From an uncultured Clostridia bacterium (GTDB lineage Bacteria; Bacillota; Clostridia; Christensenellales; UBA1242): a stretch of 62,516 nucleotides of DNA. The translations under genes and the position numbers were made by a program. The stretch covers positions 1-62,516 of the forward strand of contig CALVJJ010000006.1 of NCBI GenBank assembly GCA_944332185.1. The letters run 5' to 3'. The notes below the pieces were generated by a model, which was not told the origin of the DNA, did no database searches, and was given only the letters and a program-made list of their open reading frames with translations. Of the stretch, positions 9,122-37,883 are shown piece by piece (position 1 is the stretch's first letter; every line of letters begins with the position of its first letter).

Positions 9122-9264
9122 ATGTTTAGGTATACATAGATCATATATTTTTGCAAAATATAATGAAAAAAGACAAAAATATCTAATCGTTTAAGTTTTT
9201 AATTGTATGAAATAAAAACAGTATATGGATCTTCATAGATCCTATGTACATAGTAGAGGATAAT

Positions 9265-11421
9265 GTGAAAACAAAGAAAAAAATATATTGGATAACTGGC
9301 ATGAGTATTGGACTTATCCTATTGATTGCGATCGTAGGCATTTGTTGGTATATGTTAGCTATGCGAAAACTAAGCAATTTATCAGCCACTGTTGACCATA
9401 ATGTAGCAGTTATTTTCCAAGATGAAAATGATTGGAATATAAAAGATTTATTCGGGTTACAAGTTACGAGTGATGAAGAATATTGGATTTTTTATGAAGG
9501 ATATAATACTTCTATTGTATCGATTTCTATGCAAGGGAATCTTTCTATTGTAGGGTGTGGGACAACCAATGTGATTGCCAAGATTTGTACAGAAAATAAG
9601 ACTTGGAATCAACCTTTAACCTTGCATATAGTAGATAGGCAATATGCCACCAACTTGTCTTTTGCTCGTGATGTAGTTACCATGAATTACTTGGAGGAAA
9701 AACACAATTCTTTACATATTGACACCAAAAATGGTGATAGCTATAATTATGAGATTCAAGTAGAATCTAGCATAGATACGATTACCTATGATGCAATTTC
9801 TGGGGCAATATCTTACACGGGAGAAAAAGGACAGATAGATACTCCTTTATATGCCACCATTACGTGTAAGGTAAAAACAAGTGTGGATACTTATCTTGAA
9901 AAAAGTTTTTCTGTAATCGTGGACTTTACTACTTATGCGACAAATTTTCAAGAAGAGGACTTAGATTTGTTTTGGTCCTACAGGGTGCATACGAATGAGT
10001 TTTTACAACTTAATATGAGTGCTGTTAATGATCAAGTAGACGAACCTATTGATGTAGAAGTCATGTATGAAGTCAACACTTATCCAGAGGGAGCAGAAGG
10101 GTATCAACCTTTTGATCCTACCTATAGTAAAACTGTATTTCAATCAGGCAAAATAGCCGGAAGATATACAGTATGGGCAAAAGTACAATCTGGTATAGAT
10201 GATAATAATCAGCCAATGTATATACAAAATTTAATTACTATTGATGTCGTAGATCCTTTGCGTGATGAAGACATGGTCTTGAGTGTTACAACACAAGATG
10301 GAAAAGAACAATCTTCTAGTTTGTTGCAACAAAACATTTGGTATACCATGGTAATCGATTGTTTAGCTCGTCCTATCTATGCTACAAATATTAGAGATTT
10401 GGCAATACCGGAAGGCATGCATGTACAATATGACATGGATCAAACAGGCACAAAATTATATATATCCTTTATGATAGATTCTGTGGGAGAGTATACGTTT
10501 ACTGGTCAATACTTAGATCGTTGTGACGGTAGCTGTGTGACTTATTATCCTATCCAATATCATTTGACTGTCTTACCTACAAGTGCCACAACGGTAAAAT
10601 TTCAATCTCAAGAGACATATTTACCAATTCAAAATAATGTCATGACTCTTTATCTTTATGACAAAAACTATGAAAACGATGCAAATTATGATGGATTTTT
10701 TACTACAACACGGATTGTTTTAGAAAAAGAAGGGATACAGGTTGTTCCGTTTGATGTATCTATTGAAAATAAAAACATTTTATCTTATGAGGAAAGTACG
10801 CACCAGTTGAAAGCTTTATTAGAAGGAGAAACGAATATTTATATTACTGATCCAACCAATGATGCTGTGTTTACGTATACTGTATGTGTGCAAAAAGTAA
10901 GAGGAGTGGCAAGTACGATACCTAATTTGACCTTGTATCTATATGAAGAGGGGCAAGAGGAAGTGGCAGGCTATCCAAGTAGTACAAAACTCTACCAGAC
11001 TGTATCTCCTATTTACGCTGTCAAAGACTGGTCTTACGATCACAATATTCTTACATGGGAAAATAATACACTTTTTGCCAAAAAGGTAGGAGAGACTACC
11101 ATTACTTTGGGTGGTGTAGCGTATGGAACCATTACAGTTGTTGCTTACAAGCAACAAGATCAGTATGATATATGTATTAAAAAAGATGGAATAGTCCTAG
11201 ATGAAATTGTAGGCAATGGATATGGAGAATATACCATTGAAGTTTACCAAAATGATAGTTTGATAGAAGGAACGATTGCCATCAAAACCAATGGTGTTTA
11301 TGGATTTGTAAAAGACAATTATGTCACCATTCGTTATGAAGAAGATGGTATACTAACTATCTTGGTTACTATTCATGATGTGACAATCAGTAAAACTGTG
11401 AATATAAAATTACAAAAATAA
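9265..11421 (+). CDS. Membrane-anchored protein with bacterial Ig-like repeats, function unknown
   Basis: About 718 residues from a GTG start preceded by AGAGGA; an ATG at 9244 in the same frame would add seven residues but has no ribosome site. An N-terminal basic stretch (KTKKK) and one hydrophobic helix give a signal anchor with the bulk outside. The rest is beta-rich and resembles bacterial Ig-like (Big_2 type) modules: repeated strand patterns such as SIVGCGTTNVIAKI and LLEGETNIYITDP, where a constant or transition value meets a glycine-rich turn. No LPxTG, SLH or catalytic motif is visible. The giant protein at 18293 has the same plan. It stands alone between two housekeeping units and reads into rarA 12 bases later. 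Confidence 0.8.
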   Translation: MKTKKKIYWITGMSIGLILLIAIVGICWYMLAMRKLSNLSATVDHNVAVIFQDENDWNIKDLFGLQVTSDEEYWIFYEGYNTSIVSISMQGNLSIVGCGTTNVIAKICTENKTWNQPLTLHIVDRQYATNLSFARDVVTMNYLEEKHNSLHIDTKNGDSYNYEIQVESSIDTITYDAISGAISYTGEKGQIDTPLYATITCKVKTSVDTYLEKSFSVIVDFTTYATNFQEEDLDLFWSYRVHTNEFLQLNMSAVNDQVDEPIDVEVMYEVNTYPEGAEGYQPFDPTYSKTVFQSGKIAGRYTVWAKVQSGIDDNNQPMYIQNLITIDVVDPLRDEDMVLSVTTQDGKEQSSSLLQQNIWYTMVIDCLARPIYATNIRDLAIPEGMHVQYDMDQTGTKLYISFMIDSVGEYTFTGQYLDRCDGSCVTYYPIQYHLTVLPTSATTVKFQSQETYLPIQNNVMTLYLYDKNYENDANYDGFFTTTRIVLEKEGIQVVPFDVSIENKNILSYEESTHQLKALLEGETNIYITDPTNDAVFTYTVCVQKVRGVASTIPNLTLYLYEEGQEEVAGYPSSTKLYQTVSPIYAVKDWSYDHNILTWENNTLFAKKVGETTITLGGVAYGTITVVAYKQQDQYDICIKKDGIVLDEIVGNGYGEYTIEVYQNDSLIEGTIAIKTNGVYGFVKDNYVTIRYEEDGILTILVTIHDVTISKTVNIKLQK

Positions 11422-13998: not shown

Positions 13999-14727
13999 TT
14001 AAATTTTTGGTACAAACCCATCAATAATAATATTGTCACAATATTGTATTTTTTCTAAATATTCTTCATTTGTTTTGACATGATAACATAATAAAGGGAT
14101 ATTTGAGTATTTTTTTACATACTTATTAGGAAGTAATTTTGCATTATAACAGATAAATTGAGGATCGCAAATTTTATTATATTTTAATTTTTTCAATTTT
14201 TTTGTTTTAAATCCACAATATTTTTTTTCATGAAAATCCACCACTTTAATCCCCACAAAATGATCTGGACACGTCTTTCGTAAATATTGTACAGTGATTG
14301 GGTTTACACTCATAAAAGCATATTGACCTTTGTATCCACTAAGATGTTCCACAACTAATTTTTCTGTGTCAGTAAAACAACTGGTATTGATAATATTGAT
14401 AAGAAGTGGAACTTTACCTTGAACAATTTCTAATGCTTCTTGTAATGTCAAGATAGGTTCATCAGTTTTTAGATAGGTAAGGGTTGCCAAATCTTTTTTT
14501 TCCAAATGACAAGTATACCCATTTTTACCAGTAAGTCTAGCTAGTGTTGTGTCTCCATAACAAATAATGGTACCGTCTTTAATTTGGATCACAGAAAGCA
14601 TAATAGCTATCTTTTTTTCTATTGCAAGCATCAATGCTTTACGACTTTGTTCAGGAGCATCTGATTGAAATAATCCATGTTTTGCGATGGTATCGCCTAC
14701 TAACCAACTTTCAAATATATTCATCAT
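13999..14727 (-). CDS. Glycerophosphodiester phosphodiesterase fold protein lacking catalytic residues (probable pseudoenzyme)
   Basis: 242 residues from the ATG giving MMNIFESW, which has AAAAAGG 6 bases upstream; an in-frame ATG 21 codons earlier lacks one. The sequence aligns by eye along the GDPD family: IAKHGLFQSDAPEQSRKALMLA for the usual IAHRGLH..PENSL.AF..A, then IMLSVIQIKDG for IELDVQLTKDG, CYGDTTLARLTG for FHDxTLxRxTG, ILTLQEALEIVQGKVPLLINI for IPTLxEvLxLVxGxxPLLIEI. At each position the active-site residue differs: His to Lys, Glu to Met, Asp to Ser, His to Gly, Glu to Asn. The frame is intact, so this looks like a kept, non-catalytic protein rather than decay. No signal peptide. 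Confidence 0.75.
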   Translation of the reverse strand: MMNIFESWLVGDTIAKHGLFQSDAPEQSRKALMLAIEKKIAIMLSVIQIKDGTIICYGDTTLARLTGKNGYTCHLEKKDLATLTYLKTDEPILTLQEALEIVQGKVPLLINIINTSCFTDTEKLVVEHLSGYKGQYAFMSVNPITVQYLRKTCPDHFVGIKVVDFHEKKYCGFKTKKLKKLKYNKICDPQFICYNAKLLPNKYVKKYSNIPLLCYHVKTNEEYLEKIQYCDNIIIDGFVPKI

Positions 14728-14836
14728 AAAAAACCTTTTTAGGTGTATTTTTAAAAAGAGCAATTTTCTCTTATAAATATATGATACCAAATTTTTTAAA
14801 ATTATGCTAGTGAATGCATAAAATTGTAGAAAATAA

Positions 14837-16696: not shown

Positions 16697-17832
16697 TGGA
16701 AAAATTTGGTATATATGTGCATATTCCATTTTGTGTCAAAAAGTGTAAGTATTGTGACTTTATATCATATACTAATTGTCAAAATATTGTCAGTGATTAT
16801 ATCAATGCTTTGTTGATGGAAATAAAAGAAAATGCAAAATATGGTCAAGATAAAGCAGTGGATACCATCTATATCGGTGGGGGTACACCTAGCTATATTG
16901 ATGCAAAATGGATAGCAACTCTATTGTCTACGATTATGGAAAACTATCTCGTGTTACCTACGTGTGAAATTTCTATAGAATGCAATCCCAATAGTCTAAC
17001 AGAAGAAAAAATACAGATATATAAAACAGCAGGAGTGAATCGTATTTCTATTGGATTACAAGCAAAACAAAATTCTATCTTAAAAAAGATTGGTAGAGTA
17101 CATACTCTACAACAATATATAGATGCTGTAAAATTGTGTCAAAAATATAAGATTCTGTCTATCAATACTGATGTAATGTTTGGATTGCCGACGCAAAAAA
17201 AGAAACATATTTTGTCTACTCTTGCATTAGCTACGAAGTATAGTAAACATATCAGTATGTACAGTTTGATTCTAGAACCAGACACACCTTTATATAAAGA
17301 AGTGATGCAAGGGAAAACGAGTTTACCTAAAGAAGATCAAGTTGTTGAATGGTATGAAAAAGCAGTAAAATATTTGCAAAAAAAAGGTTATATACAATAT
17401 GAAGTTAGCAATTTTGCTTTGAAAGGATATGAATGTTTACATAATTTACACTGTTGGCAATATCAAGATTATTTAGGATTTGGAGTTTCAGCATCTTCTA
17501 AAATGAATGGAGTTCGATTCACAAGAACAAAACATCTAGAAGAATATATCACACTTGTGCATCATCAGGAATCCACTATCATACAAAAAGAAGTTTTAAC
17601 GAAAGTAGATCAATTAGAAGAAAAGATTATGTTAGGATTGCGTACAGCAAACGGAATTGATGTGCAAGATATAAAAGAAAGTTTTGGGTATGATCTAGTC
17701 AAAGAAAAAAATGAAGTCATCAAGGCATTAGTACAAAAAAAATTTGTGATACTAGAAAATGGATTTTTAAAAATATCTTCAAAAGGGTGGTATGTGATGA
17801 ATACCATTATTGTGGATTTGTTGCCTAATTAG
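16696..17832 (+). CDS. hemW: Radical SAM protein HemW (heme chaperone / CPDH-like)
   Basis: 378 residues. The radical-SAM cluster motif CVKKCKYC (CxxxCxxC) is at residues 12-19, IGGGTPSY follows, and the C-terminal HemW domain is present. The family was once called anaerobic coproporphyrinogen oxidase; true HemN has CxxxCxxCxC, and here the residue after the third Cys is Asp, which supports HemW. It overlaps lepA by one base. No other haem genes are nearby. Confidence 0.92.
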   Translation: MEKFGIYVHIPFCVKKCKYCDFISYTNCQNIVSDYINALLMEIKENAKYGQDKAVDTIYIGGGTPSYIDAKWIATLLSTIMENYLVLPTCEISIECNPNSLTEEKIQIYKTAGVNRISIGLQAKQNSILKKIGRVHTLQQYIDAVKLCQKYKILSINTDVMFGLPTQKKKHILSTLALATKYSKHISMYSLILEPDTPLYKEVMQGKTSLPKEDQVVEWYEKAVKYLQKKGYIQYEVSNFALKGYECLHNLHCWQYQDYLGFGVSASSKMNGVRFTRTKHLEEYITLVHHQESTIIQKEVLTKVDQLEEKIMLGLRTANGIDVQDIKESFGYDLVKEKNEVIKALVQKKFVILENGFLKISSKGWYVMNTIIVDLLPN

Positions 17833-17857
17833 AGAGATGGATCATCTCTCTTTTTTA
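17831..17857 (+). terminator. Terminator of lepA-hemW
   Basis: AGAGAGATG/CATCTCTCT 9-bp stem with loop GAT, followed by a T-run; it begins in the hemW stop codon. Confidence 0.88.
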
Positions 17858-18045: not shown

Positions 18046-18074
18046 TTGACAATTTTCGAGTAAATTTTTATAAT
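18046..18074 (+). promoter_or_regulatory. Full-consensus promoter of the giant surface protein gene
   Basis: TTGACA (18046-18051), a 17-base spacer and TATAAT (18069-18074) match the sigma-A consensus at all twelve positions. This is the best promoter in the window. Start expected near 18081, about 210 bases before the gene. The stretch from 17858 to 18045 shows nothing I can name. Confidence 0.78.
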
Positions 18075-18080
18075 TTATGT

Positions 18081-18292
18081 ATAGTATGATAAATACATTT
18101 TGTAAGATCATTCTAGTGACTATATAGGCAGTATCTTTTTGCCTAAAAGATAGCCCATTACTTATAAAGTAAGATAAGATAAAATCGTACAAAAATACTA
18201 ATGAGATTTATCATAGAAAAAAGTCTTTTTAGCCATACTAACAGTAAGTATGACTTAATGAAGAAAAACGCGTTCTGGGAATAGGAGTAAAA
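18081..18292 (+). promoter_or_regulatory. Structured 5' leader of the giant gene
   Basis: The leader is about 212 bases. From its 5' end: a nested hairpin (18086-18090/18107-18111 enclosing 18094-18097/18101-18104); then a pair of mutually exclusive hairpins, either TAGGCA/TGCCTA (18125-18130/18140-18145) or TATCTTTT/AAAAGATA (18132-18139/18145-18152), the latter extended by GGC/GCC (18127-18129/18153-18155); then TTACTT/AAGTAA (18158-18163/18167-18172); then CATACT/AGTATG (18234-18239/18247-18252). No T-run follows any stem, so control, if any, would be at translation or stability. It matches no riboswitch class I know. Confidence 0.45.
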
Positions 18293-21200
18293 GTGGTGAA
18301 AGTATTAAAAATTTTGGGGTGGATATTCGCAGCTGTCATGGGTGGATTTGCCTTATTGGTCGGTATGCTATATCTAACAGGTCAATTTAATCAAAGTGTG
18401 ATTGAGATGGATTCTCTTACCTTCAATGAACTTACCTTAGATGGAAATAATGGTTTTGTATATTCATCTCTTGGTGGTGGAGAAAATATGGTAGTGGTGC
18501 TTGATGATTTTGAAGCATCTATCTCTTTTGCACCAGACAATGCCACCAATAAAACGTTAATTCTAAAAGTAGTCAAAGGCGCAAATATTGTGACGGTTCC
18601 AGAGACAGTGACTGCTGGACAACCATTTACCATACATATTAACAAAGATGACAAGGGCAATACATTAGGTGGTGAGGTAGAGATTGTTGCTCGTGATGCT
18701 AGAGAATTGATTAGCACTAGTAATTCTTTAAAATTCTTTGTCGATCAACCGATTACCTCTCTTAGTAGTACATTGCAGGATATGTATCCATTCACAAAAG
18801 AACCTATTACTTTTTCTATTACAGCCAATCCTGTCAACTCTCTTAATCCTACAAAAGAACCTGAAAAATATCTTGAAGATATTACAAAATCCATTTTTGT
18901 AGAAACTTATGATGAGCAAGGTGGATTGGTGAGTATTATCGATCAAGTACAACACATTGGAAACAATTTGGATATTGCTAGTCAAAAACTAGAAAGTCAA
19001 TTCCAATTCACAATCGGGCGAGATGGAAAAACAACTTTCGTATTTAAAGCATTTGATTCGTACAAATTGTGGTATGAATACCAACAATTACAAATTACAG
19101 AAGAAAATTTTGATACAAAAAAAGTTGAAGCCACGAACTTTATCAATCAATATCTAGATAAAATCAAGAATTTTTCTTTTGAGTATGATCTAAACTCCTT
19201 ATCAAGCGACCAAGTCATGATCGGGAATAAATATAAAATTGTACGTTTTGTAGATGAAGAAGCAAGCACGCCAGAGAATACTGTTTACCAATATGAGTAT
19301 CAAATTGTTAGCACCAATAATCAACCATTGTCTGGAATTGATTTTGTGCAGATGAACAGAGATACCGTTAATGAGAATTTGATCGAAATACCAAACTATG
19401 CAACATTCATGGACGCTGTAGAGTACTTGTATGTAACTTCTATGAAACAAATCACAGTCATCAATGATGAGGCTGTAAGTCTAGAAACTAATTCTACTAC
19501 TTTTATGAATGTACATGATCAACTAGTTTACGACCAAGAAGATATGAAAAACCAATTTGGCGTAAGAATTGTCCCAAGTACGACAGGATCCAATTTGGAT
19601 AGTAGAATTGCAGACATTAAGATTTTTACTGCTAGAGAAATAGATGGAGTATATCAATTAGAAGATATTGTACCAGCACAAGATGGACAACAAACTGAAG
19701 TAGAAAAAATGGCTGATCTTTTGAATTCTCCAAAGAATATCACCAATCAAGCAGGTAGAGTATTTGGAGTTATGAAAATAGAAAATCCATTAAATGATGC
19801 ATCTGTTGTGGTGGAGAATCCAAAGAATGTCATTGAATGGAAAATTTCAGCTTATAACAAGCCAAATGATCTAGCACAAAAAATATATCTTGTCTTTACT
19901 TATATATCCGAAATCAAAAACGGAGAAAGTAACGAATCCATGGAAGTACTCTATTACTCTATAATGTCTGTAGATTTGCAACAGCAAGAAGTAGAGTCTG
20001 TACGATTTGATTATGCGAATAATAGTCAATATAATGATTTGATCCTTTCTACCGATCCAAACGGAACAAAAATTGGTAACGTGAATTTTGCCAATAGTTT
20101 TCTATTACCAAAAGATGTGGCAAGTATTACCTATGTAGGAGATCAAGAACCAACCTATACTACCATCAAATACTTTGCAAGTAAGGAAACGGTTGCGAAC
20201 AATGGAAAGTTTGTCATCGATGTGGACACCACGAAAGAATATGTATTAGATGGCGAAACCTATTATGAAATCACAGCCCGTGATCAAGCCACAGGTCAGG
20301 TAAAGATTCAGGCACTGAATGTTTCTATTTATCAAAATGAGCGATATGTTCCAGTAGAAATTTTTGCCTTTGTTGTGAAGACAGATATTTTTGGAAATGT
20401 GATCAAAATCGATGATCAATATATCAATATGAGTAGTGTCAGCATCAATAAAATGCAATACACCGTTCGTTCTTTCTTATCCGATATCTATGTGTATACC
20501 AACTTTAAAGGTGGTACAGAAGGGGGAGAAAACGAATATTATTTAAGAAACAATCTTTTGAATGATTCTGATGGCATATTTGAAGTCGATGGCACGTTGT
20601 ATACAAGGTATAGTGAAGCGCAGACTGCAGCAGAACTTACTGGTACGACACCAATTACCATTATTACCACAGATAGAACGATTGATGTTTTAGTAGATCA
20701 AGAGTTTCAAATTTTGATCACCAACAAAATTTTGTATACCAATGGCAACGACTACATGACGGCATCAGATACTGTCGACTATATTAGTAGTTATAAAAGA
20801 GCTTTAGAAGATACTGATCTTGTATCCAATTTGTCTAGATATATCTGGTTCCAATATGGTGACCATGAGTATGATTTGGAAGGATATATGCGTGGACACA
20901 ATCCTGCTACCAATCCTGATGCAGTAGGCGAAGGAAATGAGTACAAATACCCAGGAGAACTTCCATTCACTTTGTTATCTACTCAGTATGATGCAGAACG
21001 TGGTATCATCTATGCTAATTTTAAAATCAATGATGATGCACCAGATCATTATTTGGATATTAACTATCAACGTATTGTAGAAGAAGTTGATGGAGAAGAT
21101 GGGAATGCTTTGACAGATACCATCACAATCGATGCAAAACTCAATATTCAAGGATATTTTCTAGAACTAGACCAAAATACTTCTGTGTTAGGAGGCTATA

Positions 21201-24200
21201 CAGCTGACCACAAGGTAGATACCATGGCAGAAGATGGCATGACAGAAGAAAATTATGCTTTATTCCATAGTGAAGAAATCTTGATTCCAGTAAGGGGTAT
21301 GGTAGAAGGTAATTTATCTAGTTGGAAAGTAACCAATTATGCTGATATGAACGAAGATTTTAAAACAAGATATGTTCAAAAATATACCAATGTCAGTGAT
21401 GATGGTACAGTAGATAGCAACTATCCTTTGACTATCAAAGCCTTAAAATTCAATTACAATTTTATGGCACCAGCTGGATTAGATGAAGGAGTATATGATG
21501 AAACTTTAGTTCCAGATCTCACAATAGAATATACACCATATTTTGCAGAAAAAACGGAAAAAGATGGTGTGATCTCTTATACAATGACAGATCAAAAAGC
21601 AACAGAATATGTACAGTTGACACCAGTGATTGGATTAGATGGATTGGTAAATGTGACATTCCTAGGGGCTCCTAGTTCAGAAGTGTATATCATGTTCCAA
21701 TGTGACATATATGCATACGAAACCAATGATACAGATGCGATTAGTTTTCAAGGAAAATATTTCTTAAAACATTTCTCGTTCTTTTCTAATAATACCGTCA
21801 TGTCTTTAAGACAAGATACACCAATCTTTAATTTGATTCAATTTGCCAATGGACAGATTTCTAGTCCAATTACAGAAAATAGTTTGACCAATCAATCTGT
21901 GATGCAAGGTGGCAGTTCTTATTTACTAAATGGAACGGACTCTGTTGTAAGAGTTGGGTTTACCACAGATCCTATCACTGGAAATGTGATTCCAAATGGG
22001 GGAGTCTTTAATGCTTGTACTTTCTCCATTGCACAAGAAGAAAATAGTCAAAAATTATTATACTTTATTTTGAATGGCGATACTGAAAATGAACTTACCT
22101 ATATTCCTGCAGGAACAGATATATCTACTTTAGAGATTGCTGCTAGATCCACGAATTCTAAAGCAGAATCTTTGATGTTTAGTATTAGTTTGCTGGGAGT
22201 GACAAAAGAATATTATATTACAGTAGAAAGCAACATTAGTGTGCAATACAATCCACAAGGAAATGGAGAAGATGGCACGTATGAAGAATATACGAATAAT
22301 GCTGTTATTGAAGTAGATGCTGAAAGTAGCTATGACTTATCTCAGTATTTTAAAGTCACACAAAATAATGAAATAGCATCTAATAACAATACAACATATC
22401 AGGCTGTATTCTATATCATAAGTGGACAAGCAAATTCTAATTATTTTACATTAGATGAATTAGGAACAGTGCTTACTACAGGTCGTGCTTATCAAGATAA
22501 AACCTTGACCATTGGCATAGAATATCAAATTCTAGAAAATGGAGTTGTGACAGATACACAACGTACATCAAGTCAATTCCAAGTTATCTTAAAAGGGAAC
22601 GGATCTATCCAAGCAACGAATAAAGAACAATATGATTTTGTAGAACAAAACCAAAAACAAATCATGTCTTTGTCTGTCAGCAATGGACAAGTTATAGATC
22701 TTGGAGAGTATATTCAAGTAGGACAGCAAAAAGATGATGTCAGTCAATATGTACTAAATGTTGTTACAAGTTCTTTGTCTAGTGTAGATGTGGAAGCTTT
22801 GTTTGGTACCAATTTGGATCAAGTCATTGATGGATTACAACTATCTTGCAACCATTATTATAAAATCGTAGAAAATGTACCAGTTGTGATATATTTTAAC
22901 GAAATTTTCTGGAGTGGACAAGATTGGAGAACCATACCATACGAAACAATATACCAATTATCTATAACATTCCAACCAGATGTGGTGTTTGATACCATTG
23001 ATGCTCAAATTTTGCAAGATCAAAGTTCTCCAGATCAACCAACGAATTGGGCTAATGTAGTTTTATATGATCGAACAATGAGCGACAATATTGTTTCTCT
23101 AACAGCACAAGGACAAGATGTATTCTATTATGGATACCTAGATAGCGAAATCTACATAGTAGATACTTTAGATGCAAAGGAAAGAACACTATATACAGGG
23201 AATATTCTTACCATAGAAGCAACAAAAGATGGCGATACTACCACGCAATTACGCTTACAACAAAATTGCAGTGTACAACAAACAACATATTTTATTGTAG
23301 TGATCAAGACAAAATATGGTAGTGATATACAAGAAGAAGTGTCAGTAACAGTATTACCAAATTATGTTGCACAAGCTCAATATCCTTTCAATGGTACATA
23401 TGAACAAGTGCGCGTAGGGACAAGTATAGATTTGTTGGAAGCTTACTTAAACGAATTCCCAAGAATTTATATTCATAAAGAAAACCAATCTCAAGCTATA
23501 GAAAAAGTAGAAGGGCTGATTACAAACGTAACAGCTTATAGTGGGGCTGTTGATGTCACGAATAGATTCACAGTAGATGGATCTAGAGTAACACTCAATT
23601 CACAAAATACACCACAACAATGGATTACATTACAAGTAGAATTGTTCAATGGATTGGTTGTGAATTATGAGCTAGAAAGAATTAGTGGTACTAGCCAACC
23701 TATTACCTTAAAGACACAAGATGGAAAGGGAAGTAGTATCGAGAATCCTATTGAAATTTATGGTACACAAGTCTTTAGACTTAGTGAATACGTAGGAAGT
23801 ACCAATTTGGTATATGGAACTATTGCTGACTTTAAGGACACAACCCTTACGTTACAAAACGGTGCATCTTATCAAGTGTATGATCGCATTTTGGAAAATG
23901 AAGCTATTTACTTTAATGATGTCACAACCGATCATGATTTGGTGTTCTTACTATATTCTTCAAATACTGTCTTTGGAGATAGCACTGGCGTCATGCCTTT
24001 GTATGTAAGAGTCATACCAAATCTTGTCATAGAGAATAGGTATAATTCTATGCCTGCTGGACATGAAGTCAATTTGGCTGAGTATGTAAAGATTACACGT
24101 GGATACGGACAAGAAGCACTTACCTACGGAAAAGATGGTATCATAGAGTATAATACTGATCTATTTACTATCAGTGCAGATGGAAGTACCATTCAATACA

Positions 24201-25765
24201 ATCATAATGTCGCAGAACAAATCACTGCAACCTTGTCGATAACTTACAAGCAAGGAAAAACATACACGATTGATCTTATCATTATTCCAGATGTCAATTT
24301 TAACTTGGTAGAAGGTGGATTGACAAGATATGGTAGCGAAACCAATTCTACCTATACCTTAACAAAAGCTGATTGGACAAAGAATGGTATGGGGTATACC
24401 GATTATCTAGGTGGAACGATTGGTAGTGAAGCCACCATTATAGAAGAAATATCTTACATTACTGGTAATGATGTAAAAGCAGTTAGTTTCCAAAAGAATT
24501 CATCTGGAGATATGGAAATTACAATAGGAGCTATCAATCAAACAGTAACCCTACAATTAAAAGTAAGTTATAAACTAACAAAAGACGGTGGTGTGTATAG
24601 TCAAACCATTAACATTACCATAAGACCTAACTTGCAATATGTCAAAAATGATGTCATTGTTGATGTATATGCAGGGACATCTATTCAACCAGTCATCAAC
24701 AATAATTATCTAACTATCAGTGGAACTACAGCATTTAGTTTTACCATTGTAGACACAAAAGCAACGGGAGACAATATTACAAAAGCATTATTGTATGATT
24801 TTAGTGAAGAACCAGATTTTTCTGATAAAACCTATTTAGATTATGTATTTGTGGCAGAAGATGGAAAAACTTTATGCTTTAGAAATGTGATGGAAGATAC
24901 GACCATTCATATACCATTTAGAATAGATTTGACAGGAGAAAGTGTTCCATATACACAAGCGTATAAGAATGCAGATTTTTATATCTCGATTCGTATTGTA
25001 CCTAGTGTCACAAATGTCCAATTAACGAATACATACCAATCTTACATAGACCAAAATCATGCTTATGATTTGTTAGCTACGGATACCAATCAAATAGTTG
25101 TAAAAGACATGGTAAACGTAGTAGGGGCAGACAATACAACCGTTGAATATATGTATCCTAATTTTGATGTTTTGATTCATGAATTATGGAAAGATGGTCA
25201 GCGTTTGAGTCAAGTAGAAGTAGATACGACGCAATTCGTTGTCTATGATAAAACAAATGGAATAATTACATTTGCACCATGTTCACAAGAAGTAATAGTT
25301 GCAATCACTATCCAATTAGATGGACAATTTGATACAACTTGCTATATCTTATTATCAGCAATTACCATTGATGTGTCTTCTAAAATTAGTGAAAGCAGTG
25401 CAGATCCAAAAATGACAATGGTAAAAGATACGAACGTAGTAGGCAATACGTATACATATATTTTGCAGTATAATAATACAGATACGACAGGGTATGAAGA
25501 AGGAAAGTATACTTTTAATTTGTTGGATTTAATTATCTATCAAATTAGTATCAAAACAGAAGAAGGAACAGAATCTTCACAAAAACTAGACCCATCAGCT
25601 ATTCAAGTGTTAGCAAGCTCTACAAGTCCATATTTAACGATAGATATGGAAAACATAACACTGACAGTTACGATTCCTGAAAATGGGGTAGTAGATGAAG
25701 GTACAGTAGATGTGTATATGTATATTGGATTAGATATCTATCAATTTAGTATTCAATTTGCTTAA
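18293..25765 (+). CDS. Giant membrane-anchored repeat protein (2490 residues), function unknown
   Basis: Starts at tandem GTG codons (18293 or 18296) behind AGGAG. One hydrophobic helix (about residues 7-28) with no convincing cleavage site gives an N-terminal anchor; about 2460 residues would then lie outside. The body is polar, rich in Asp, Asn, Thr and Tyr, poor in Cys, and reads as beta strands. In the second half a module recurs: a strand closing with a motif like VxVLPN or IRPN (near residues 1683, 1905, 1996, 2107, 2232), followed by Ala-Gly-(Thr/His) and a hydrophobic Leu-Tyr stretch. This spacing of about 90-220 residues suggests tandem Ig-like or cadherin-like domains. There is no LPxTG, SLH or enzymatic signature and no C-terminal hydrophobic tail. 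It is monocistronic. A role as adhesin, stalk or sheath is inference. Confidence 0.85.
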   Translation: MVKVLKILGWIFAAVMGGFALLVGMLYLTGQFNQSVIEMDSLTFNELTLDGNNGFVYSSLGGGENMVVVLDDFEASISFAPDNATNKTLILKVVKGANIVTVPETVTAGQPFTIHINKDDKGNTLGGEVEIVARDARELISTSNSLKFFVDQPITSLSSTLQDMYPFTKEPITFSITANPVNSLNPTKEPEKYLEDITKSIFVETYDEQGGLVSIIDQVQHIGNNLDIASQKLESQFQFTIGRDGKTTFVFKAFDSYKLWYEYQQLQITEENFDTKKVEATNFINQYLDKIKNFSFEYDLNSLSSDQVMIGNKYKIVRFVDEEASTPENTVYQYEYQIVSTNNQPLSGIDFVQMNRDTVNENLIEIPNYATFMDAVEYLYVTSMKQITVINDEAVSLETNSTTFMNVHDQLVYDQEDMKNQFGVRIVPSTTGSNLDSRIADIKIFTAREIDGVYQLEDIVPAQDGQQTEVEKMADLLNSPKNITNQAGRVFGVMKIENPLNDASVVVENPKNVIEWKISAYNKPNDLAQKIYLVFTYISEIKNGESNESMEVLYYSIMSVDLQQQEVESVRFDYANNSQYNDLILSTDPNGTKIGNVNFANSFLLPKDVASITYVGDQEPTYTTIKYFASKETVANNGKFVIDVDTTKEYVLDGETYYEITARDQATGQVKIQALNVSIYQNERYVPVEIFAFVVKTDIFGNVIKIDDQYINMSSVSINKMQYTVRSFLSDIYVYTNFKGGTEGGENEYYLRNNLLNDSDGIFEVDGTLYTRYSEAQTAAELTGTTPITIITTDRTIDVLVDQEFQILITNKILYTNGNDYMTASDTVDYISSYKRALEDTDLVSNLSRYIWFQYGDHEYDLEGYMRGHNPATNPDAVGEGNEYKYPGELPFTLLSTQYDAERGIIYANFKINDDAPDHYLDINYQRIVEEVDGEDGNALTDTITIDAKLNIQGYFLELDQNTSVLGGYTADHKVDTMAEDGMTEENYALFHSEEILIPVRGMVEGNLSSWKVTNYADMNEDFKTRYVQKYTNVSDDGTVDSNYPLTIKALKFNYNFMAPAGLDEGVYDETLVPDLTIEYTPYFAEKTEKDGVISYTMTDQKATEYVQLTPVIGLDGLVNVTFLGAPSSEVYIMFQCDIYAYETNDTDAISFQGKYFLKHFSFFSNNTVMSLRQDTPIFNLIQFANGQISSPITENSLTNQSVMQGGSSYLLNGTDSVVRVGFTTDPITGNVIPNGGVFNACTFSIAQEENSQKLLYFILNGDTENELTYIPAGTDISTLEIAARSTNSKAESLMFSISLLGVTKEYYITVESNISVQYNPQGNGEDGTYEEYTNNAVIEVDAESSYDLSQYFKVTQNNEIASNNNTTYQAVFYIISGQANSNYFTLDELGTVLTTGRAYQDKTLTIGIEYQILENGVVTDTQRTSSQFQVILKGNGSIQATNKEQYDFVEQNQKQIMSLSVSNGQVIDLGEYIQVGQQKDDVSQYVLNVVTSSLSSVDVEALFGTNLDQVIDGLQLSCNHYYKIVENVPVVIYFNEIFWSGQDWRTIPYETIYQLSITFQPDVVFDTIDAQILQDQSSPDQPTNWANVVLYDRTMSDNIVSLTAQGQDVFYYGYLDSEIYIVDTLDAKERTLYTGNILTIEATKDGDTTTQLRLQQNCSVQQTTYFIVVIKTKYGSDIQEEVSVTVLPNYVAQAQYPFNGTYEQVRVGTSIDLLEAYLNEFPRIYIHKENQSQAIEKVEGLITNVTAYSGAVDVTNRFTVDGSRVTLNSQNTPQQWITLQVELFNGLVVNYELERISGTSQPITLKTQDGKGSSIENPIEIYGTQVFRLSEYVGSTNLVYGTIADFKDTTLTLQNGASYQVYDRILENEAIYFNDVTTDHDLVFLLYSSNTVFGDSTGVMPLYVRVIPNLVIENRYNSMPAGHEVNLAEYVKITRGYGQEALTYGKDGIIEYNTDLFTISADGSTIQYNHNVAEQITATLSITYKQGKTYTIDLIIIPDVNFNLVEGGLTRYGSETNSTYTLTKADWTKNGMGYTDYLGGTIGSEATIIEEISYITGNDVKAVSFQKNSSGDMEITIGAINQTVTLQLKVSYKLTKDGGVYSQTINITIRPNLQYVKNDVIVDVYAGTSIQPVINNNYLTISGTTAFSFTIVDTKATGDNITKALLYDFSEEPDFSDKTYLDYVFVAEDGKTLCFRNVMEDTTIHIPFRIDLTGESVPYTQAYKNADFYISIRIVPSVTNVQLTNTYQSYIDQNHAYDLLATDTNQIVVKDMVNVVGADNTTVEYMYPNFDVLIHELWKDGQRLSQVEVDTTQFVVYDKTNGIITFAPCSQEVIVAITIQLDGQFDTTCYILLSAITIDVSSKISESSADPKMTMVKDTNVVGNTYTYILQYNNTDTTGYEEGKYTFNLLDLIIYQISIKTEEGTESSQKLDPSAIQVLASSTSPYLTIDMENITLTVTIPENGVVDEGTVDVYMYIGLDIYQFSIQFA

Positions 25766-25772
25766 AAAAATG

Positions 25773-25803
25773 AAAAGAGAGAAAAGTTTTCTCTCTTTTT
25801 TTA
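25773..25803 (+). terminator. Terminator of the giant gene
   Basis: AAAAGAGAGAAAA pairs with TTTTCTCTCTTTT followed by further T; 8 bases after the stop codon. Confidence 0.85.
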
Positions 25804-25871: not shown

Positions 25872-26414
25872 ATGAAAGAAACGGGAATTGTAAGAAGAAT
25901 AGATGAATTAGGTAGAATTGTTATTCCCAAAGAAATGCGCAGAGTTTTACGCATGGCAACAGGTACACCTATTGAAATAAAAACCACAAAAGAAGGGGAG
26001 ATTGTCCTATCAAAATATTCCGTCATCTGTGAATTAAAAGATTATGCGAATTTGGTGGCAAAAGCAATCTTTGATACGATGAATATGTGTGTTGCTATTT
26101 GTGACACAGACAAAGTGGTAAGTGTGGCAGGTCTTAGTAAAAAAGTATATGTAGACAGTCCAATTCACGAAACACTACAAAGAGTAGTGGGGTATCGAAA
26201 ACCACTTTTACTCAATCAGTCAGATCAAGCCACGATGATCCCTGTCATGATGCAAGGAGATAGTACATATCAAGGACAAATCATTGTTCCTATTACCAAA
26301 GATGGTGATGTAGTGGGTGCCATCGTGGTATTGGCAGATCATGATGTCAGTTTGGCTGATGTCAAGGTAGTGACTGGTTTTGCTACGTACTTAAAGTTAA
26401 TTTTGGAAGAATAA
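25872..26414 (+). CDS. spoVT: Stage V sporulation protein T (AbrB-type regulator)
   Basis: 180 residues. The N-terminal swapped-hairpin AbrB domain reads MKETGIVRRIDELGRIVIPKEMRRVLRM; the C-terminal part is a GAF-like domain (about residues 55-178, with QGQIIVPITKDGDVVGAIVV). In Bacillus SpoVT is made in the forespore under sigma-G and tunes late spore genes. AGAAAGGAG precedes the ATG. It is followed immediately by a flippase gene, as spoVT-yabM in Bacillus and spoVT-spoVB in clostridia. I could not identify a convincing forespore promoter. Confidence 0.95.
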   Translation: MKETGIVRRIDELGRIVIPKEMRRVLRMATGTPIEIKTTKEGEIVLSKYSVICELKDYANLVAKAIFDTMNMCVAICDTDKVVSVAGLSKKVYVDSPIHETLQRVVGYRKPLLLNQSDQATMIPVMMQGDSTYQGQIIVPITKDGDVVGAIVVLADHDVSLADVKVVTGFATYLKLILEE

Positions 26415-26415
26415 T

Positions 26416-28029
26416 ATGAAAAGACAAAGTATGTTATTAGGAGTAACCATTTTAGCAGTTTGTGGTATCATAGCCAAGTTTATTGGTGCATTTTATAAGA
26501 TACCTTTAATGCATATATTGGGCACAAATGGTATGGGGGTATATTATTTAATATTCCCCTTTTATTCTATGATGTTGACGATTGCTTCTTCTGGACTAAG
26601 TTTAGCTGTGGTCAAAATGGTGTCTTTAGAAAGGGCACATGGTCTTGTCACCAATCAAAGACGTATCTTTAGAGTAGCCATATCCTATGTCATGATTGTT
26701 ACTGTTTTTATTGGTATTTTGATGGTCATTTTTAGTGAAAGTATCAGTGTGGCACAAGGGAATATTAGTGCAAGACTAGGCTATGTAGCCATTGCACCAG
26801 CTCTTATTTTTTCCGGTATGATTGCCGTAGCAAGAGGGTATTTTCAAGGCCTTACGATGATGTGGCCGACAAGTCTTAGTACTTTAATGGAACAAATTAT
26901 CAAAGTTGGACTAGGATTGTTCTTTTCCCATTTATTCTTGCAACGTGGTTTGGAATATGGTGTTTTTGGGGCAGTATTAGGTGTCACAATGAGTGAATTT
27001 GTTGCTTTTTTGGTCATGTTTTTTCAATATTTTTTACATCAAAAAGATATACGAAAAGATAGTGATCTGTCTCAAAAAGTATTATCCTATTCGGAAATTG
27101 CAAAAACATTATTTCGTTACAGTTTGCCAGCGACCATCAGTAGTTTGGTCTTACCTGTATCTTCTTTTATAGATTCTTTTTTACTCATTCATCTTTTAGA
27201 AAAAAGTGGGTTAAGTAATGTCATTTCAACAAGTTTATACGGTATCAGTAATGGAATTATTACCACACTGATCAATTTGCCTATTGTTTTAATTAGTGCC
27301 TTAAGTACTGTGATGGTACCGAATATTAGTGGGTGTCTACAAGAAGAGAAAAAAGAAATATGCTTCAAATGTAGTTTGTTTGTCAAAACTACGTGGCTGA
27401 TCACCATACCATGTTTTGTATCTTTTTATTTTTTAGCACCAGAAATAATCAATATTTTATATCATTATGGCCTTAGTAACCAAGTAATACCAGAATATAA
27501 CTATGCCTATTCTCTTTTAAAAATATCTAGCATTACCATTATTTATTATGCTTTTTTGCACACCTTTACAAGTATTTTGCAAAGTATCAATAAGCCTTTA
27601 CTCCCTTGCATTAGTTTAGGAATAGGAATTGTAGTGCGTACAGTCTTTTGTATTCTATTGGTCTCTAATATAAAATGGAATATATATGGATTAGTCATCT
27701 CTAATTTTTTCTTTTTACTCATTGCTTGTTTATTAAATGTCTATTTTGTCAAAAAATATGTAGCATTAGACTTGAGTTTTAAACGATTTTTTGTAGTGCC
27801 CATTTTTGCAGGTGTGTTGTCAGGATTTACGATATATTTGACAAAAATGCTACTTTGTTCATTTGTACACCTGTACATCTATTCTGTGGTAAGTTTTGTG
27901 GCTGGTATGATTGTCTATTTTGGTATGGTAATCTTGCTAAAAGCATACAACTCTTACGAAATCAGTAAAATATGGAAAAGAAAGAAAAAAGTGACAGTTT
28001 TGCAAGATATTGTGGAAAAAGATGTATAA
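26416..28029 (+). CDS. Polysaccharide/lipid flippase of the MOP superfamily (SpoVB/MurJ/YabM type)
   Basis: 537 residues with about 14 hydrophobic segments and the family-typical start LLGVTILAVCGIIAKFIGAF followed by YKIPLMHILGTNGMG. Such proteins move lipid-linked sugars across the membrane; those linked to spoVT are implicated in spore cortex or wall synthesis. It starts two bases after spoVT, so the pair is co-transcribed. Whether it acts on lipid II (MurJ-like) or another lipid cannot be decided from sequence. Confidence 0.9.
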   Translation: MKRQSMLLGVTILAVCGIIAKFIGAFYKIPLMHILGTNGMGVYYLIFPFYSMMLTIASSGLSLAVVKMVSLERAHGLVTNQRRIFRVAISYVMIVTVFIGILMVIFSESISVAQGNISARLGYVAIAPALIFSGMIAVARGYFQGLTMMWPTSLSTLMEQIIKVGLGLFFSHLFLQRGLEYGVFGAVLGVTMSEFVAFLVMFFQYFLHQKDIRKDSDLSQKVLSYSEIAKTLFRYSLPATISSLVLPVSSFIDSFLLIHLLEKSGLSNVISTSLYGISNGIITTLINLPIVLISALSTVMVPNISGCLQEEKKEICFKCSLFVKTTWLITIPCFVSFYFLAPEIINILYHYGLSNQVIPEYNYAYSLLKISSITIIYYAFLHTFTSILQSINKPLLPCISLGIGIVVRTVFCILLVSNIKWNIYGLVISNFFFLLIACLLNVYFVKKYVALDLSFKRFFVVPIFAGVLSGFTIYLTKMLLCSFVHLYIYSVVSFVAGMIVYFGMVILLKAYNSYEISKIWKRKKKVTVLQDIVEKDV

Positions 28030-37532: not shown

Positions 37533-37883
37533 GGGGACGAAATGGTTTCGACAATCAAGTGACTGCGAGATTAAGCATGTTGTAGAGGCGTCTACACTAA
37601 ATTACGCGAACTTAAACTTAAATGCAGAAAAACAACCTGCTTTACTTGCTGCCTAGTTATGGCGCAGTAGTCAAATGTATGTCCAACGAATATATTTGAC
37701 TTTAGGTAGTTGGCTCCTTAGTTATATGGTTTCTCTAACATATTGCTAAGTATCTTTAGGGAAGGGTGCTAGAATATTTTGTTTTACCTAGTTTTAGTAC
37801 TCTACAAAAGGTAAAACTAAACATGTAGAAAGATCTTTGAGGTTCTTTTTTGGACACGGGTTCAACTCCCGTCGTCTCCACCA
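37533..37883 (+). ncRNA. ssrA: Transfer-messenger RNA (tmRNA)
   Basis: 351 bases. The 5' end GGGGACG pairs with CGTCTCC before the encoded ACCA, and the T-arm GGTTCAACTCCCG-like sequence is at the 3' end; the 5' part has the conserved GAAATGGTTTCGACA. Reading from the resume codon GCG (37606) gives the tag ANLNLNAEKQPALLAA followed by TAG (37654-37656). The end LLAA is a slight variant of the common ALAA degron. Single-piece form, located directly after smpB. Confidence 0.95.

Follow-up and report, generated by a model that had tools for sequence, protein, structure and literature searches.

What is a protein of 2490 amino acids for in a bacterium whose genome measures 0.96 Mb (97% complete)? 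The question is raised by a gene at 18293..25765 (+) in the stretch of DNA that we analysed (62,516 nucleotides, hereafter the window), which comes from an uncultured Clostridia bacterium of the UBA1242 group. Such bacteria, whose genomes measure about one megabase, occur commonly in the guts of farm animals and have not been cultured. They are predicted to live at the expense of other cells, UBA1242 as an obligate symbiont or parasite that draws metabolites from them (PMC12306168). In the literature that we found its attachment machinery is not named, the published account speaking only of "hypothetical membrane-bound proteins" (PMC12306168). An earlier note on the window had proposed that the gene could encode a filament, sheath or contact protein, and we asked how far this holds.

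An intact giant gene, probably in its own transcription unit

The giant gene is intact, with a GTG start and no internal stop. Chance can be ruled out as the origin of an open frame of 2490 codons at 34% GC, and intact homologues are found across the family. It is indeed the largest gene of the window, the second-largest ORF encoding 1165 residues, and the earlier claim that it has the best promoter is borne out: a TTGACA-17-TATAAT element at 18046..18074 (+), about 220 bases upstream of the start, matches the consensus at 12 of 12 positions and is the sole perfect intergenic sigma-70-type match, the other one (9719-9747) falling inside an ORF. A ribosome-binding site read from the sequence, AGGAG (18283..18287, +), precedes the GTG start(s) at 18293/18296. 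The upstream gene is closed by a terminator-like hairpin (17831..17851, +) and an intrinsic terminator-like hairpin of 13 pairs follows the giant gene (25772..25800, +); having its own promoter and hairpins on both flanks, the giant gene is thus probably a transcription unit of its own. Its codon adaptation, an indirect measure of expression, is mid-range for the window (0.632 vs 0.65-0.79 for the ribosomal genes). Elsewhere the window holds a tmRNA gene (37533-37883), three clustered tRNA genes where the contig ends (62263-62516) and, among its few minus-strand genes, a glycerophosphodiester phosphodiesterase-like ORF (13999-14790, -) with a ribosomal-like codon bias (0.704).

A single membrane helix as anchor

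The giant protein is acidic, contains 7 Cys and has one hydrophobic segment, residues 1-31. A membrane helix at residues 2-28 (18296..18376, +) is indicated by hydropathy, by the AlphaFold model and by its conservation in an alignment of 27 relatives, and is best interpreted as an uncleaved type II signal anchor. The same build recurs in the 68 giants of the family that we collected: all are acidic and Cys-poor, 53 have one N-terminal hydrophobic segment and nearly all the others add at most weak ones. No LPXTG motif was found in the last 60 residues of any of the 68, the 2490-residue protein included. Sortase gave no match in the source genome, and was matched in only 1 of 24 family genomes vs 8 of 16 relatives from the order; SLH domains matched neither the giant protein nor anything in 40 genomes. 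A penicillin-binding protein with a transpeptidase domain is present in 20 of 20 genomes checked, and the cells are therefore walled. With neither sortase nor SLH in the source genome, no anchor other than the N-terminal helix can be recognised, and the C-terminus is expected to face outwards. The description of a huge protein tethered by its N-terminus only thus stands, and an extracellular location and surface exposure are the likely consequences of this topology.

Two known filament types came up as candidates for the helical region and were rejected. A weak flagellin match (8fk7, profile E 0.0026) leans largely on the hydrophobic helix. A type IV pilin or archaellin is contradicted by the 27-row alignment, which lacks the prepilin glutamate and shows no conservation of the glycine ahead of the helix.

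An anchor module shared by the family

When 59 related genomes were searched at the protein level, members of the same GTDB family yielded relatives, the majority of which match the first ~180 residues only. What they share is an N-terminal module of about 176 residues, made of a short basic tail, the helix, a GxF motif and one Ig-like domain. Profiles were built from a first alignment (A1) and then from a better one (A4, 27 rows), in which P103 and G126 are invariant and F32, F112, G127 and D151 occur in at least 90% of the rows. The giant protein bears the full module: the helix, GxF and the Ig-like domain with P103, F112, GG126-127 and D151. Profile searches found the module in 230 of 297 family genomes and 32 of 42 genera, and the better profile found it in 167 of 190 high-quality family genomes, usually as one copy per genome. 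Samples of the order, class and phylum outside the family yielded nothing comparable, with weak partial matches only (1.2e-6 for the best to 1e-2).

Beyond the module, little is held in common. Among the 68 giants in the regions read, 65 are complete and range from 1148 to 5689 residues (median 3391). Collinearity extends over ~830 residues between the source group and genus group g14 and over ~2700 between g34 and g20, and distant genus groups have the module alone in common. A scan of genome contigs with the whole protein found no match because the sequence diverges too fast. One member differs from the others examined: the giant of genome G023 (L012:6561-13838 (-)) apparently ends, around residue ~2250, in a transglutaminase-like domain, with a corresponding Cys-His-Asp motif located in this locus (Pfam Transglut_core, 3e-7, in 1 of 17 members; NCBIfam MAG6410-type, 6.8e-14, in one member). 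The distal end can therefore carry a functional module.

The suggestion that the protein might be undescribed has to be qualified accordingly: no existing family describes it, but it is not a one-off, belonging to a family-wide, mostly single-copy set that shares an anchor module. As judged from sequence, and as far as our searches reach, this module and its single-copy conservation throughout the family appear to be new; giant multi-Ig surface proteins as such are an already known kind.

A predicted chain of Ig-like domains

Sequence comparison assigns the giant protein to no family: Pfam, NCBIfam and PDB searches gave no meaningful score, so that the profile search proposed earlier as a check led to no known adhesin family, and the Big/invasin Pfam models did not match it or 16 relatives at E 0.1. 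No support was found for a polyketide or toxin role, in line with the earlier reading, and no adhesion domain was identified. Structure prediction in segments, the other check proposed, gave two AlphaFold models (residues 1-1200 and 1291-2490), both mostly beta, at low confidence (mean pLDDT 52 and 48); in ten-residue blocks pLDDT reaches ~64-83 for residues 71-180 and 60-78 in much of 1560-1800. Next to the membrane lies the conserved Ig-like domain of the module (residues 41-151, 18413..18745, +; pLDDT mostly ~50-83, best part 70-83), also supported by alignment A4. Residues 151-391 (18743..19465, +) are predicted to form the next Ig-like domain, which bears an insertion; VIA-align superposed 83 residues of it on the Big_2 domain 7quz (Z 9.2, rmsd 2.1). 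Three tandem Ig/cadherin-like domains are predicted by Foldseek and VIA-align at about residues 1453-1561, 1564-1689 and 1690-1800 (22649..23692, +).

Structure matches of the first half include SbsC (Z 9.3), Big_2 (9.2), LigA (8.8), InvD (8.2) and intimin (8.0), and those of the second half the Sap S-layer protein (7.7), protocadherins and FdeC (Z 6.0-7.7 overall, values below 8 being weak if taken alone). The best scores (10.2, 9.3 and 9.2 for the first half, 7.7 for the second) concern parts of the chain only, in models of mean pLDDT 48-52. Three S-layer proteins, SbsC, Sap and EA1, are among the matches. That no known family is recognisable by sequence stands, and the predicted fold is shared with S-layer proteins and adhesins.

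The second half had also been described as repeating a PN-containing strand followed by an Ala-Gly turn. A strand followed by P[NDS] does occur six times there vs 1.06 in shuffled sequences (p ~0.0005, for a motif chosen after inspection) and strict PN three times vs 0.66 expected, and one PN motif (1685-1690) falls where the models place the border between two Ig-like domains (1689/1690). A sequence repeat, however, is ruled out: in a profile self-comparison one weak end-strand match is all the sequence sharing that can be detected between domains, and the PN copies are not duplicated sequence. Because two independent halves agree and the PN motif falls on a domain boundary, the models make it likely, without proving it, that the giant protein is a chain of divergent Ig-like domains.

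Divergence usually increases along the chain

In five of five genus groups no part is better conserved than the first 150 residues, and identity drops along the chain, rising again at the C-terminal end in g34. Five closely related pairs were compared with the neighbouring cardiolipin synthase as reference: its identity is 91-99%, that of the giant 58-82%, with dN/dS of 0.02-0.04 and 0.14-0.21, respectively. Along the giant, dN/dS rises in the pair L051/L186 from an N-terminal 0.14 to 0.37 at the far end, and in L056/L169 from 0.06 to 0.22; the gradient of conservation is weak in L173/L175. Every segment measured stays below 1, which therefore indicates weak constraint or episodic change and does not prove positive selection. 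Genera differ fivefold in the length of the giant, and a single genus spans 3203 to 5689 residues. That the giant protein is membrane-tethered and diverges fast at its far end is thus well supported.

The pair L051/L186 shows a separate peculiarity: dS is 0.16 for the cardiolipin synthase, 1.19 for the giant and 0.96 for the other flank. A recombination breakpoint at the 3' end of the giant gene is likely. Replacement of the giant allele was considered and set aside, the other flank having diverged too; the cardiolipin synthase may be the exchanged gene.

A core envelope neighbourhood

The giant gene occurs in three contexts. One starts at the end of the ribosomal operon and comprises rpoA, L17 and the giant, in many cases with a large lipoprotein before it and a DUF975-like membrane protein after it, and then spoVT-spoVB. 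The source window is a rearranged version of it: genes for a spoVT-like regulator and a spoVB-like flippase (25872..28029, +; identified by NCBIfam and synteny) lie directly 3' of the giant, as in part of the family, and a 725-residue companion with an N-terminal helix is encoded after L17 at 9244..11421 (+). This companion is homologous to the large lipoproteins that sister genera carry between L17 and the giant (E 3e-8 with the lipoprotein of L089). In another context the giant is followed by cardiolipin synthase, within ~20 bases or overlapping in several loci, and in genus g65 the giant comes at the end of a row that begins with an FtsA-like gene and continues with FtsZ and a lipoprotein (L059:1612-9328). 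These core envelope neighbours make a basic role at the surface more likely than an accessory island.

Two further neighbours were observed. A protein of 670-960 residues is encoded upstream of the giant and divergently transcribed at L051:15547-17988, with counterparts in L053, L062, L052 and L011; it has a low-complexity acidic middle, a hydrophobic stretch and then a charged, probably coiled-coil tail, has no Pfam family and evolves as fast as the giant where compared. A small Sel1-repeat-like protein lies beside or near the giant in g18, g34 and g65 (L009:9864-10598, L066:4883-5638 and others), in otherwise different surroundings.

What the giant protein may do

The best single reading, which we hold with about as much belief as doubt, is a multi-Ig stalk that is tethered to the membrane and makes contact by its far end. 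The protein would be held in the cytoplasmic membrane by one uncleaved helix behind a short, positively charged N-terminus, with the conserved Ig-like domain directly outside; perhaps 15-20 further divergent Ig-like domains would carry the C-terminus through and past the cell wall, giving a stalk of perhaps 80-100 nm for the 2490-residue protein, and the fastest-varying far end would be the part most likely to touch partner cells, host or food surfaces. Such a stalk would suit a genome-reduced gut bacterium in need of metabolites from other cells, and giant membrane proteins have been linked to host attachment in Vampirococcus (PMC8080830). Of the roles first proposed, a filament or contact protein is plausible, and the fold models and the distal divergence are among the evidence for the contact stalk. 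Against it, adhesins are usually accessory and multi-copy, whereas the giant is nearly universal, present once per genome and set among core genes. The missing adhesion domain, the low confidence of the models and the weak gradient in L173/L175 also count against it.

The main rival is a structural part of the envelope (an S-layer-like coat, a sheath or a wall-spanning scaffold) that would replace a conventional S-layer and use the helix as its anchor. We regard it as a serious, if tentative, possibility: the giant genes are near-universal, single-copy and flanked by cardiolipin synthase, the SpoVB flippase or, in one genus, FtsA/FtsZ, S-layer proteins are among the structure matches, and the source genome has neither SLH nor sortase. 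Codon usage below that of the ribosomal genes, unlike that of a dominant coat protein, and length variation unexpected for a fixed lattice both count mildly against it, and distal divergence is better explained by contact or evasion. Evasion itself, in the form of a long surface brush whose function lies in the change at its far end and which wards off phages, complement-like factors or predators, would account for fast divergence rising toward the C-terminus in most close pairs and for modular length changes; dN/dS below 1 throughout and a single copy with no sign of phase variation or multiple cassettes make it improbable. A role in spores or sporulation, suggested by the adjacency of spoVT and spoVB in the source window and several genera, is hardly credible: giants occur in genomes with no SpoVT match (G010, G019, G026 and G033), so that the spore link is incidental, cardiolipin synthase is the neighbour in other genera and the giant has its own sigma-70-type promoter.

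If the contact stalk is retained, it is tempting to speculate further that it is an undescribed, family-defining structure, one giant per genome, by which genome-reduced UBA1242 attach to the partner cells they depend on; we consider this more specific proposal rather unlikely as it stands. Whatever the function, a near-universal giant whose anchor module can be recognised offers something concrete to label, to enrich for and to test functionally, and annotation pipelines gain a model for a protein that is now nameless.

Comparison with known systems

The closest parallels in general build are the giant multi-Ig adhesins of Gram-positive bacteria, such as the 7651-residue TIE adhesin of Mobiluncus mulieris (PMC10619420): one huge polypeptide with tandem Ig-like domains (predicted in our case) at the surface of a Gram-positive cell. 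These adhesins, however, are anchored to the wall by a C-terminal LPXTG signal and bear their adhesion domain at the N-terminus, whereas the polarity is reversed here, with an N-terminal helix as anchor and no sortase match in the source genome. Invasin/intimin and LigA-type proteins likewise have tandem bacterial Ig-like domains, matched here in structure and not in sequence, but they sit in outer membranes by a different anchor, and the cell that bears the giant is expected from its taxonomy to have a single membrane. The Ig-like domains of SbsC, Sap and EA1 are among the best structural matches; the giant differs from these S-layer proteins in having a helix tether and no SLH domain, and its codon usage gives no sign of very high expression. 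In lifestyle the nearest cases are the partner-dependent Vampirococcus lugosii (PMC8080830) and Omnitrophota (PMC10066038), which combine reduced genomes with membrane-anchored giants proposed for host contact. Their giants are several per genome or poorly conserved, whereas those described here share a conserved anchor module and are mostly single-copy throughout the family.
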